Positions 1-3,359 of a stretch of 54,017 nucleotides of DNA are shown here, one piece after another (the first letter of the stretch is position 1; every line of letters begins with the position of its first letter). The notes below the pieces were generated by a model that worked only from the letters and a program-made list of their open reading frames with translations, was not told the origin of the DNA and made no database searches. The position numbers and the translations under genes are program-made. The stretch covers positions 1-54,017 of the forward strand of contig NZ_AMSF01000086.1 of the NCBI RefSeq assembly GCF_000334915.1, written 5' to 3'. The stretch is from Dyella ginsengisoli LA-4 (GTDB lineage Bacteria > Pseudomonadota > Gammaproteobacteria > Xanthomonadales > Rhodanobacteraceae).

Positions 1-86
1 ATGAAGATTGGCAGTGGCCCGAAAGCCTGGGGCAAAGGCGTCATGCACCCGGGGTTGATCGGAAGTCTCTTACGGAGTTGTTAGGT
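1..86 (-). other. attC: partial attC recombination site of an integron cassette
   Basis: On the minus strand the cassette stop codon TAG is followed at once by ACCTAAC (86 to 80), which fits the inverse core site RYYYAAC that opens an attC site. The matching closing core GTTRRRY was looked for on the minus strand down to position 1 and is absent, so the site is longer than 86 bp and runs off the window. The sequence after the core (AACTCCGTAAGAG) would be one arm of the imperfect palindrome; the other arm is not visible. Confidence 0.6.
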
Positions 87-413
87 CTAATGCACTGCAA
101 CGGCTGTGCCTTTTTGTGTATTGACCCGCCAGCTAGCTACTACTGTGCCATTGATCTTGTAGGTGACAATGAATAGGTGGGTAGTGTCCAGGACGCCGGG
201 CTCAACGGGGCGCTTGACCAACCAAGTGCGCACCTTAGTGTCATGCCACCAACTATCAGGGTTGTCCACAGCGCGAATCTTGGCCTGCTGCGTAGTTACT
301 ACGATACGAATTGCAGTGGTTGGAGAACTTTGCTGAGGGTTGCCTGCCCACACGGTAGTTGCTGCAGCGAGCGACACACATGCACCGATGATTGATTTGA
401 ACGACTGATGCAC
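87..413 (-). CDS. integron-cassette gene for a small secreted protein of unknown function
   Basis: This 108-residue protein is not recognised. Its first 23 residues look like a Sec signal peptide: a positive start, the hydrophobic stretch IIGACVSLAAATTV, and an Ala-x-Ala-like site at VWA before GNPQQ. The mature part of about 85 residues has no motif I can name and no cysteines. The gene is flanked by integron core sites (436-430 before it, 86-80 directly after its stop) and points away from the integrase, as cassette genes do. The region looks less GC-rich than the chromosomal genes around it, as expected for a captured cassette. The start is the ATG about 17 bp inside the cassette. Confidence 0.6.
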   Translation of the reverse strand: MHQSFKSIIGACVSLAAATTVWAGNPQQSSPTTAIRIVVTTQQAKIRAVDNPDSWWHDTKVRTWLVKRPVEPGVLDTTHLFIVTYKINGTVVASWRVNTQKGTAVAVH

Positions 414-429
414 AGCTGACTCCGCTGAG

Positions 430-596
430 ACCTAACGCTTAGTAGACCCCATATCTGGGGTGTTGCACCGAGTATGCCTGAGGCTCCAGACCGCCAACAA
501 GCGACAAATTCCTACATGTCATCAAGCGGTTACGTGACTGTGTCGGCGACGTTTGGATCGCATGCTGCTCGTGTTACACGGCGGATGTGAGGGTGT
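430..596 (-). other. attI: attI-like integron insertion site
   Basis: The minus-strand heptamer GTTAGGT (436-430) fits the GTTRRRY core at which cassettes join attI. It sits between the integrase start (597) and the cassette gene start (413), the usual place for attI. A perfect inverted repeat ACCCCA-TATC-TGGGGT lies at 446-461, 10 bp from the core. The accessory integrase-binding sites and a cassette promoter (Pc) could not be identified with confidence. Confidence 0.55.
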
Positions 597-1592
597 ATGA
601 GTTACGCAGGCGGAAACGAGGGTGTAACAGAGGCGAATTCGCCGCGGTTGCTGGATCAGGTGCGTTCGCGTTTGCGGCTCCGGCACTACAGCCTGCGGAC
701 GGAGCAGGCGTACATCGGTTGGATACGACGCTTCATCCTGGCCAACGGGAAGCGGCATCCTCGTGACATGGGGGTGATGGAAGTGGAGGCCTTTCTCAGC
801 AGGTTGGCGACCGATGGCAAGGTTGCGGCCGGGACGCAGAACCAGGCGTTGTCTTCACTGTTGTTTCTCTATCGCGAAGTGCTGGGCGTGGAATTGCCGT
901 GGATGGAGACGGTGGTGCGCGCCAAGCGCCCCCGTCGTGTACCGGTGGTGCTATCGCGCGACGAGGTGGGGCGGCTGCTCGCTCGTCTCGACGGGCAGTA
1001 CGCGCTGATGGCTTCGCTGCTTTACGGAGCGGGCATGCGTCTGATGGAATGCATCCGGTTGCGGGTGAAGGACGTGGACTTCGGTCGGAACGAGATCTGC
1101 GTGCGCGACGGCAAAGGTGGCAAGGATCGTCGCGTGCCGCTGCCGAAGAAGTTGCACGAGAGTCTGCGCCTGCAGATGGAGCGCGTGGCGGTCATCCACG
1201 GTGAGGATCTCGCCGCCGGCTTCGGTGCGGTCTGGCTGCCTCATGCGCTGGCCCGCAAATACCCCTCGGCTCAGCGCGAGCTGGGTTGGCAGTATGTTTT
1301 TCCGGCAGCGCAACGTTCACGCGACCCGCGCGATGGCACCGAGCGGCGCCACCACGTGGGCGAGACGCAGTTGCAGCGGGCGGTGAGGTCGGCACGGATC
1401 CGTGCCGGTATCGTCAAGCCGGCCACCTGCCACACCCTGCGCCACTCCTTTGCGACCCACCTGCTGGAAGCGGGGCAGGACATCCGCACCATCCAGGAGC
1501 TGCTCGGTCACAAGGATGTGGCGACCACGCAGATCTACACACATGTGCTCAACCGGGGTGGGATGGGCGTGGTCAGTCCGCTGGATCGGTGA
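597..1592 (+). CDS. intI: integron integrase IntI (tyrosine recombinase)
   Basis: The 331-residue protein is a site-specific tyrosine recombinase that inserts and excises gene cassettes at attI/attC. It aligns along its length with class 1 IntI1. The N-terminal SAM-like domain includes [10 protein letters not shown] (30-39). The catalytic domain has R148, K173, H279, R282, H305 and nucleophile Y314, each offset by two from the IntI1 residues. The segment around 186-237 ([10 protein letters not shown]) is the extra patch that separates IntI from XerC/D. No frameshift or internal stop is present, so the gene looks functional. GAGGG lies 5 bp before the ATG. Cassettes lie to the left on the other strand, so this marks the start of an array that continues outside the window. 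Confidence 0.93.
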
Positions 1593-1630
1593 GGGTGGCG
1601 GTCCGGGCGATGGGGTGCGATGAAAAGGGT

Positions 1631-1652
1631 GTCGGGGCTGAAGCCCCTCCCA
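1631..1652. repeat. REP-type palindromic repeat, copy 1
   Basis: A 22-bp sequence containing the palindrome GGGGCT-GA-AGCCCC (1634-1647). The identical 22 bp recur at 17481-17502, also between genes. It resembles the short REP elements scattered between genes in Xanthomonadales and Pseudomonas. Confidence 0.6.
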
Positions 1653-1728
1653 AAAGGGATCGCCGCGCGCGGTCCAGCAGAGGAACGAGCTGGCGCGGGC
1701 GGCCCTGCGCAGTCTTCGCGGGTGTTGC

Positions 1729-1811
1729 AGGAGCCCGCTCGCGGGCGATGCTTTTTTGTTTCGATGTGGATCAGGATCAGGAGCAGGAGCATCGCCCGCG
1801 AGCGGGCTCCT
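1729..1811. repeat. paired REP element (BIME-like), 23-bp perfect inverted repeat
   Basis: Positions 1729-1751 and 1789-1811 are perfect reverse complements over 23 bp and are separated by a 37-bp spacer. Each arm contains the smaller palindrome CCCGC..GCGGG typical of REP elements. The pair lies between convergent intI and the fliK/flhB-like operon, where the large hairpin could also end transcripts from either side. With copy 1 of the other repeat it explains the gene-free stretch 1593-1827. Confidence 0.65.
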
Positions 1812-1827
1812 ACGGGGGCGAGGTTGC

Positions 1828-2100
1828 CTAGAGCTTTTCGCCGGAGGCCTCGTACACGCAGGCCAGCACCGAGGCGGCGGCGGCGTAGAGCGTGCCGGGC
1901 ACGTCGTCGCGCAGGCGCAGCGAGGCGAGCAGGGCGGCAATCTGCGGGTCCGGATGCAGCGGGATGCCCTGGTCGCGGGCGCGGGCCAGCAGCAGGTCCA
2001 GGGTTTCGGCCGGGACGCGTGGCGCGGCTGGCGCGTCCTTGCCGCCGGTGCCCAGGCGCAGGGTGACGCGGCGTTGCGGATTCGGTAGCGACTGGGTCAT
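1828..2100 (-). CDS. FlhB C-terminal-domain homologue (FlhX/YlqH-like)
   Basis: The 90-residue protein corresponds to the part of FlhB that follows the NPTH autocleavage site in the cytoplasmic domain of the flagellar export switch. Residues about 30-85 match the FlhB pattern, with GIPLHPDP and LYAAAASVLACVY. It lacks both the four membrane helices and the NPTH motif, so it cannot be the export-gate FlhB itself. Its ATG overlaps the stop of the upstream fliK-like gene (ATGA, 2100-2097), implying translational coupling. Small proteins of this kind next to a FliK-like gene are known, for example B. subtilis ylqG-ylqH. A role in tuning export specificity is inferred only. Confidence 0.75.
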   Translation of the reverse strand: MTQSLPNPQRRVTLRLGTGGKDAPAAPRVPAETLDLLLARARDQGIPLHPDPQIAALLASLRLRDDVPGTLYAAAASVLACVYEASGEKL

Positions 2101-3359
2101 GCCTGGGCCTTCAGCAGGTTGGCGGTCTGGCGGCCGGTGCCGCGCGGCAGGCCGGTCTGGCAGGTGAGCTGGTCGAGCAGCAGGCCGCAGGCGGCCAGGC
2201 GCTGGCGCAGGGCGGTGAACTGCTGCTCCAGCCGGTCGGTGGTGCTGGCGCGTTCGGCCCACAGCCGCACCGACAGGCGCAGGTCGTGCAGGTGCAGCTC
2301 GCCCTGCACCGGGCCGAGCGTGGGCAGGTCGATGGCGAAGCCGAGCGTCCATTGCCGCGGTGGCTCGCCTTCCGGGCCCGGCACGTGATCGAGCTGCAAC
2401 TGCAGGATGTCCTTGCCATCGCGGCTCTTGATCGGGATCTCGGTCATCCACGCCGGCACGGTGGTGGCTTCCAGCTGGGCCACCTCCACCCGGGCCAGCG
2501 CGGCACGTACGGCAGTATGCAGTTGGGTCAGCACCGGCGTCGGGTCGTCCTCGGCGCCCAGCCGGGTGAGCTGGGTGGCCAGCTCGGCGGCGCGTGCCTG
2601 CGGTTGCACGCCACGCTGGAGCAGCGGCGGCGGGGTGTCCAGTTCGGATCCGGACAGCGCCGGTCGCGCGGTCTGCGAACTGCCACTGGCGCTGGCGCTG
2701 CCACGCGGCGGGGCGTAGCTGGCGAGCAGGTTGGACAGCTTGAGCAGGACCGCCTTCCAGTCGTCCTCGCCCACGTTGGAGGCCAGCAGCGGCCCCTGGG
2801 TAAGGCTGGACTCCATGAACAGCCCGCTGCGCACGATCGCCTCGCGCAGGCCGGCGCCGGTGGTGACATCGGCCGGCGTACGGATCGCCTGCTCCAGTTG
2901 GGCCAGCACCGGGCGCAGCTCGGCCGGGATCTGCCGCATCACCGGTCGCTGCGACAGCGCCTGCACCGAGGCCAGCAGCGGGGCGAAGCCGTTCTGCTGG
3001 GGCAGCCGTTCGCGCATGGCGATCTGTGCGGTGGATTCGGCCACCTGCGGCAGCATCACCTCCAGCGTGGGCTGGCTGCCCAGGCTGAGTACCCGCACCT
3101 GGAACTGCGCCGGCAGCGCCGCCTGGGTCTGGCCGGGCAGCAGCATCGATCGGGGATCGGGGGCGCCGCCGCCACCGGACTGGCCGGACAGGTCCGCCTC
3201 CACGGCCATCCCGCCCACCTGCAGCAGGATCTTGCCCTGGTCGGTGACGCCCAGCGGTCGCGCGGACAGCACCACTCCGATGCGCCAGCTCTCGGCGGTG
3301 GTGCCGGAGGCGGCGCCGAGCCAGGTCAGTGCGGCAAGGCTGGTGGGTTGGATGATCAA
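2097..3359 (-). CDS. fliK: FliK-like flagellar hook-length control protein
   Basis: The 420-residue protein has a low-complexity N-terminal half and a C-terminal Flg_hook-type domain (about 300-400, containing LHLHDLRLSVRLWAER). FliK proteins measure hook length and trigger FlhB to switch export from rod/hook to filament substrates. The reading frame opens with TTG at 3359, preceded by AGGAG at 7-bp spacing, which I take as the start because no better ATG follows soon. A sigma-28-type promoter lies upstream on the same strand (3444-3418). It overlaps the small FlhB-like gene. It could be a second FliK-like paralogue rather than the main FliK, because no hook or basal-body genes are beside it. 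Confidence 0.72.
   Translation of the reverse strand: MIIQPTSLAALTWLGAASGTTAESWRIGVVLSARPLGVTDQGKILLQVGGMAVEADLSGQSGGGGAPDPRSMLLPGQTQAALPAQFQVRVLSLGSQPTLEVMLPQVAESTAQIAMRERLPQQNGFAPLLASVQALSQRPVMRQIPAELRPVLAQLEQAIRTPADVTTGAGLREAIVRSGLFMESSLTQGPLLASNVGEDDWKAVLLKLSNLLASYAPPRGSASASGSSQTARPALSGSELDTPPPLLQRGVQPQARAAELATQLTRLGAEDDPTPVLTQLHTAVRAALARVEVAQLEATTVPAWMTEIPIKSRDGKDILQLQLDHVPGPEGEPPRQWTLGFAIDLPTLGPVQGELHLHDLRLSVRLWAERASTTDRLEQQFTALRQRLAACGLLLDQLTCQTGLPRGTGRQTANLLKAQA

Follow-up and report, generated by a model that had tools for sequence, protein, structure and literature searches.

We lean towards reading the integron of Dyella ginsengisoli LA-4 as a distributed one, in which a composite attI site of about 200 bp would outlive its integrase gene intI, would be swapped between loci and would be served in trans by whatever IntI remains. 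The stretch of DNA from which this reading starts, hereafter the window, comprises bases 1-54017 of contig C86 (54,017 nucleotides) in the assembly of this strain (genome G000; 4.55 Mb, 99 contigs), and it would represent the integrase end of the system, with an intact IntI beside its own attI. In the mechanism that we propose, deletion of intI would leave the module in place, since the module would still be receiving cassettes with IntI acting in trans, and it would perhaps also drive these cassettes. Recombination would carry modules and their arrays from one locus to another, and an attC-targeting element of the IS1111 type would break the arrays up.

An intact integrase at the edge of a chromosomal integron

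The left end of the window carries the following features.

1-76, plus strand: right end of an IS1111-type insertion sequence within an attC (94.7% match to the last 76 bases of the insertion sequence in genome G003)
77-86, minus strand: what is left here of the interrupted attC, including the outer (R'') heptamer GTTAGGT at 80-86; in G003 and others the remainder of that attC is found across the insertion sequence, at its opposite end
87-413, minus strand: first cassette gene, an ORF of 108 aa with a start that by eye resembles a signal peptide
431-477, minus strand: attI core, with the crossover heptamer at 430-436; common to contigs C12, C37 and C36, and partly to C15
478-570, no strand: spacer of weakly conserved sequence (identity 0.66-0.73) and fairly constant length, as judged from core-to-intI distances
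571-630, no strand: distal block of two imperfect repeats with TGTTAC / GTGTAAC half-sites, over intI codons 1-11
597-1592, plus strand: intI, intact integron integrase of 331 aa, identified by TIGR02249, catalytic residues and alignment to 2a3v

The original prediction had placed the edge of a chromosomal integron in the window, with an integrase still intact and a cassette array to the left, and this description is supported. The product of 597-1592 scores 506.8 bits against the NCBIfam model TIGR02249 'integron integrase' (cut-off 265), and it falls far under the cut-offs of both XerC (145.3 bits, cut-off 335.15) and XerD (141.4 bits, cut-off 329.6). Residues 19-331 align to the solved IntI4 2a3v (E 2.3e-99), and the IntI-specific insert, at the place where we presume it to lie, falls inside this alignment. 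A check by position found the catalytic set R148, K173, H279, R282, H305 and Y314 to be complete, each of the six residues standing where it had been said to stand. The protein thus passes as an integron integrase by its TIGR02249 score, by its better match to that family than to XerC or XerD, by its catalytic residues and by the alignment through the insert. It is the single IntI over the TIGR02249 cut-off in G000. Among the best 80 named loci, the seven closest to the window intI all belong to Rhodanobacter, at 81-83% identity.

The two core heptamers were likewise found as claimed, ACCTAAC at 430-436 and GTTAGGT at 80-86, both read on the plus strand, and the gene said to point away from intI between them is the minus-strand ORF 87-413, for which no Pfam or NCBIfam match was found. 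The attI core at 431-477 adjoins intI, and the attC array that completes the chromosomal integron lies on contig C7, assigned to this locus by synteny and unjoined to it in the assembly. An intergenic palindrome (GGAGCCCGCTCGCGGGCGATGC...GCATCGCCCGCGAGCGGGCTCC), REP-like in kind, lies beside intI at window 1724-1816 and occurs also at 5419-5494 of L012, near another attI locus. An Rfam search of window 1-3000 returned four microRNA-family matches on this palindrome, all far under their gathering scores, and these were rejected.

That the integron at the window is not a chance assembly of motifs follows from the attC sites of the same genome. A covariance model was built from 14 attC sites of G000 (on C12, C67, C15 and C37), with the alignment and the structure set by us. 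It finds at least 30 sites in G000 at E <= 1 and at least 28 at E <= 5e-4, the 14 training sites included; these numbers are lower bounds, with 150 of 11,767 candidates scored. The R and L boxes pair in the folded single strand, as expected of attC, and 94.2% of the cells in the 14 sites are paired, a value that 0 of 500 shuffles reach, against 86.1% in shuffles and 29-44% when the sequences are slid. Of the 500 shuffles, 86 equal or exceed the 14 sites in the number of pairs changed on both sides, and 422 do so in the number of further pair types; two of the five measures of covariation are no higher in the 14 sites than in the shuffles.

An insertion sequence within attC

The contig stops at position 1 because an IS1111-type element has inserted in an attC. 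A reading of window 1-76 as part of the attC itself was ruled out, these bases being the end of the insertion sequence. The sequence of window 1-85 is met again where C12 begins and where C15 and C67 end, with divergence setting in always at the same point, and in copies from several genomes the insertion lies between ...GAGT (or a near variant) and NNGTTAG of the attC. The complete element, as found in G003, measures 1,496 bp and encodes a transposase of 356 aa (ORF 81-1151; PF02371 2.3e-24, PF01548 5.3e-14), which leaves about 345 bp downstream; its subterminal inverted repeats are 11 bp long, AAGAGACTTCC / GGAAGTCTCTT.

Among the G000 loci compared, left ends of the element are found on C7, C72, C48 and C67 and right ends on C12, C15, C67 and C86, which amounts to about four copies. 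A search of the G000 assembly with PF02371 gave no match; the assembly holds ends of the element only, and the body is described from G003. Synteny with the single-contig genome G003 places C7, which has three attC matches, as the left flank of the intI locus, and synteny with G001 places C72 as the left flank of C12, while C67, with ends of the element on both sides, is unplaced. The array that had been predicted to the left of the window therefore does continue, on other contigs. The test that had been put forward along with it, in which the lack of an attC within about 200 bp beyond position 1 was to count as refutation, would have misfired, because the element separates the R'' box from the remainder of the attC: judging by its relatives, an insertion of about 1.5 kb intervenes, and the array resumes after it.

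Elements of this kind form the IS1111-attC group, which was reportedly treated by Tetu and Holmes in 2008 and by Post and Hall in 2009. The element described here shows the marks of the group, namely a DEDD/Transposase_20 transposase (in the G003 copy), subterminal repeats within the range of 11-13 bp together with a downstream NCR, and insertion at one attC end. As far as the accessible part of PMC11187229 goes, it is in this way like ISKpn4 and ISPst6, whose group has a DEDD-type transposase, subterminal inverted repeats, a long non-coding stretch downstream of tnp and insertion at one end of attC; the likeness is one of described features rather than of alignment with the named sequences, and the body of the element is known from G003.

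Further attI modules in the same genome

G000 contains at least five attI modules, and the one on C86 alone has an intact intI. Further copies of the window's attI region (431-624) are found at C12, C36 and C37, and a weak one at C15. These four intI-less modules have all kept both the core and the distal block, each of them heads a cassette array, and each is followed by a remnant of intI, 40 codons long at C12 and about 13-24 codons at C36, C37 and C15. Within about 170 bp after the module comes a chromosomal gene, which encodes a prolyl aminopeptidase at C12, an OYE-type oxidoreductase at C36 and an ABC transporter at C37. The OYE-type oxidoreductase gene, which adjoins the C36 array (L012 7540-9603), gives no match at its curated cut-off. 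At another array, C15:36-38k, no attI module was found.

Such extra arrays could in principle arise from off-target insertion of cassettes into non-attI (attG) sites, a route that has been proposed for integrase-less arrays (Cury et al., as cited in the accessible part of PMC8618304). We hold it to be very improbable here: an attI module, followed by remains of intI, stands at the head of these arrays, which refutes the attG route for every locus that has a module.

A family-wide survey of attI sites

The survey covered 197 genomes of the family. An attI model, R2, built from four G000 sites and including the distal block, matches 61 of the 197 genomes at E <= 1e-4, with at least 127 matches by hand sum. 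Seventy-four of these were classed, mostly the higher-scoring ones and with some at contig ends left out, and they divide into 24 with a full intI, 10 with a partial one and 40 without. Because the alignment cut of R2 could have made the sharp end of the modules an artefact, the count was redone with the 19-base attI core alone, allowing one mismatch and seeking intI within 1.8 kb. This core survey gave 67 sites in 33 of the 197 genomes, against 0 for the reversed control pattern: 40 are without intI, 21 have a full and 4 a partial intI, and 2 lie too near a contig end. At least one core-found intI-less site is present in 24 of the 33 core-bearing genomes.

By our reading, an attC (E <= 0.01) lies on the expected side at 30 of the 40 intI-less sites found by R2; no attC was found at the other ten, four of which had less than 700 bp on that side. 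Many intI-less loci have two or more attC sites without a nearby intI, as a CALIN would, and some have one attC or none; what departs from the CALIN definition is that the attI platform, there taken to be absent, is present as a module. Outside the family R2 gave 38 matches, and the 20 that were fetched comprise 10 with full, 7 with partial and 3 without intI; most of these 20 have, by eye, a distal block of like kind.

One might suspect that a draft assembly simulates intI-less sites, intI being present and lost at contig breaks, particularly as G000 is split into so many contigs and copies of the insertion sequence break its arrays. The chromosomal genes that follow the modules at C12, C36 and C37 do so on the same contig, however, the single-contig genomes G003, G032 and G040 also carry intI-less sites, and the two core-found sites too near a contig end were set aside. 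The probability that we would give to such an artefact is negligible.

A more serious alternative is that the intI-less modules are dying relics, that is, full integrons once, from which intI was deleted and whose attI and array are slowly fading. Decayed modules do exist (clearly so G003:1118k, and further G003:3645k and G092:C5), and the accessible part of PMC12444791 describes loss of intI as common in Xanthomonas. Against this, the distal block scores above the maximum of 160 null windows in 37 of the 40 core-found intI-less sites, so that it has largely been kept.

Anatomy and conservation of the attI module

The attI module is about 200 bp long and consists of a crossover core, a spacer and a distal block, made up of short half-sites in inverted arrangement, that reaches over the first 11 codons of intI. 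Measured in 20 intact sites, the distance from the core start to the estimated start of intI ranges from 161 to 178 nt, and 17 of them fall within 161-171 nt. Conservation was expressed, band by band, as identity to the nearest intact site, for intI-less against intact sites; 6 of the 20 start positions in this reference fall off an ATG, which blurs the positions, and 1 of the 21 full sites is without a usable start. Measured in this way, the core is 0.86-0.90 identical in intI-less and 0.81-0.88 in intact sites, the spacer 0.66 against 0.73, the first half-site band of the distal block 0.73 against 0.74, and the two half-sites after the ATG 0.81 and 0.81 against 0.88 and 0.79. The start codon reaches 0.84 against 0.95 and the band from +10 to +24 of intI 0.70 against 0.79, and from +36 the intI-less sites stand at 0.64, 0.59 and 0.58 against 0.72, 0.82 and 0.87. 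In a good part of the intI-less sites, by eye, the ATG has been swapped for another triplet with the surrounding half-sites kept.

These bands bear on the distributed reading in both directions. The intact sites are somewhat better conserved in several of them, the start codon and +10 to +24 among others, which counts against it, but up to about +33 of intI the conservation of the distal block in the intI-less sites stays near that of the intact ones, and it is there that it drops, which argues against relics.

The ends of the modules were also mapped by loss of homology to intI. For the 40 model-found intI-less sites this loss falls at +29 to +47 of intI in 21 and at +57 to +85 in 8; among the rest it falls at +112 and +114 in 2 and was earlier or not found in 9. 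We weighed, and rejected, the idea that an exact second recombination site closes the distal block: the end point varies among recent copies (about +20 to +90, by eye), and for this reason we prefer a deletion that runs as far as a conserved boundary.

The distal block may belong to attI, act as a promoter/operator, or do both. As a promoter/operator for both the cassettes and intI it would be kept because cassettes need a promoter, a reading that is compatible with IntI acting in trans and to which we would give just short of an even chance. The block straddles the start of intI, where promoters are to be expected, but a search of window 420-900 for promoters of the sigma-70-like type found none. 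Moreover, the attI core contains half-sites similar to those found in the distal block, and both parts differ in step between the two main types of module (both by eye). This pattern speaks against the promoter reading and would favour one binding protein for core and block. With regard to LexA-type regulation, the accessible part of PMC3108266 describes the LexA proteins of Xanthomonadaceae as failing to recognise the beta/gamma-proteobacterial motif.

Availability of IntI

Service in trans would presuppose an IntI elsewhere in the genome. IntI over the cut-off is present in 50 of the 61 genomes with an R2 match. A core-found intI-less site is present in 24 genomes; the search for IntI took in 23 of them, and 20 of the 23 have a match over the cut-off (hand tally), two of which, G040 and G145, match over part of the protein only. 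In the other three of the 23, G002, G086 and G182, intI-less sites are present and no IntI match over the cut-off was found, which counts for the relic explanation and against the distributed one.

Two further loci may be recorded here. Genome G014 has five attI-like modules (L180, L182, L192, L199 and L205) and no IntI match at E <= 1e-25, and in L250 (G035:C17) intI is internally deleted, residues 1-97 and 300-330 matching and the middle missing.

Cassette differences and probable exchange of modules

The same chromosomal loci carry intI-less modules in different species, and the cassettes beside them mostly differ. Pairwise comparison found matching right flanks for 33 pairs of intI-less sites, and 28 of these pairs have no common left stretch of at least 120 nt, with up to 3 kb compared; the pairs are non-independent, two lie within one genome, nine of the flank matches are shorter than 320 nt and some of the left sequences are only about 0.5 kb. 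Where the flanks match over at least 700 nt, 20 of 24 pairs are without a common left stretch. The five pairs that do share one include C36 / G002:C6, where it is flank, and two where its length makes it look like flank; possibly related cassettes are found in G024:C10 / G094:300k (69%) and G081:1248k / G155:C37 (80%). The best pair is G032:520k / G059:C2, with the same junction, a module 96% and a flank 94% identical, attC in both and no common left stretch. Within the genus of G000, C12 and G001:C1 have the same intI break at codon 40 and no common 150-nt stretch in the parts of the arrays compared. That modules persist at matching loci with a different cassette side in most pairs argues against relics, and we think it unlikely, on the evidence from all these comparisons, that the intI-less modules are no more than that.

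The arrays could also have come to differ because parts of a longer ancestral array were deleted, because homologous recombination changed them, or because intI was lost after the exchange. Some cassettes are shared between loci. One cassette is common to the intI array of G001 and its intI-less C4 array (94.6%), the attI-proximal cassette of C36 matches one in the G001 intI array (86%), and a cassette common to C37 and G003:3645k (91%) lies directly at attI in the latter.

The modules themselves appear to have been exchanged as well. At the C37 locus, four genomes have four module sequences, 0.66-0.78 identical to each other, with the same gene end, and the G003 module at this locus is 95.7% identical to the window module over 185 bases and ends like C37, so that by eye it is a hybrid. 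Near-identical modules occur also within one genome: 97% in G076, where one has intI and one does not, 96% in G035 and 95% in G102. In G145, modules L234 and L253 (C1:3010k and 3081k) share 98% identity, lie about 71 kb from each other, point in opposite directions and have different arrays; this pair is a recent duplication or conversion.

The intI locus was compared between G000, G001 (G001:C2:370k) and G003 (G003:C1:2122k). The IntI proteins are only 68-72% identical, against 79-98% (mostly 86-98%) for the flanking DNA in 250-base bins. Identity jumps near the 3' end of intI, a pattern that would fit replacement of the platform through recombination. A like case is given for X. arboricola in the accessible part of PMC12444791, with ilvD at 97.1% and intI at 68.2%.

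Taken together, these facts fit modules that would be useful without an intI of their own and would be exchanged between loci, which is short of proof of capture in trans. More tentatively, the Xanthomonadales integron as a whole might be a genome-wide network, with a long attI whose distal half-sites extend into the start of intI, with sites inherited, duplicated and exchanged independently of intI, with one IntI filling many of them in trans, and with the conserved CALIN positions of Xanthomonas as old attI ports; this extension we hold to be possible but somewhat doubtful.

Comparison with known systems

CALINs, the loss of intI and the IS1111-attC elements are already known, and integrase-less arrays have so far been taken for degraded or static leftovers. 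If such arrays start at a working attI, the number of capture ports per genome would be undercounted wherever only intI and attC are sought. The model also predicts the size of attI, and it offers a reason why arrays would keep their chromosomal positions across species. According to the accessible part of PMC9024848, attI sites other than those of class 1 have been described only poorly, and IntegronFinder does not detect them. The accessible part of PMC12444791 reports Xanthomonas CALINs at conserved positions and explains them by ancestral integron activity, with attI at these positions going unmentioned in that part. In a literature search limited to open-licence papers, no account of intI-less attI modules occurring as families was found.

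Like the sedentary chromosomal integrons of Vibrio and Xanthomonas, the system described here has an IntI, an attI and an array of attC cassettes divergent from intI; unlike them, it has five attI modules on different contigs for one intact intI in G000. With CALINs (clusters of attC sites lacking an integron-integrase) it shares cassette arrays without an adjacent intI, but these arrays start at a conserved attI module, which in a CALIN is usually assumed to be absent. A Shewanella prophage has been reported to carry a CALIN headed by an attI of its own (accessible part of PMC9892861), and there, as here, the same replicon also contains an intact integron; in contrast to that single prophage case, 40 of 67 core-found sites, spread over 24 of 33 genomes, are without intI here, and the module is long and composite. 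Finally, as far as the accessible part of PMC12901181 goes, the Delta-attI gene cassettes of mobile integrons are similar in being attI-derived sites away from an intact attI-intI pair, but they are parts of cassettes in mobile resistance integrons, whereas those described here are chromosomal modules beside chromosomal genes.
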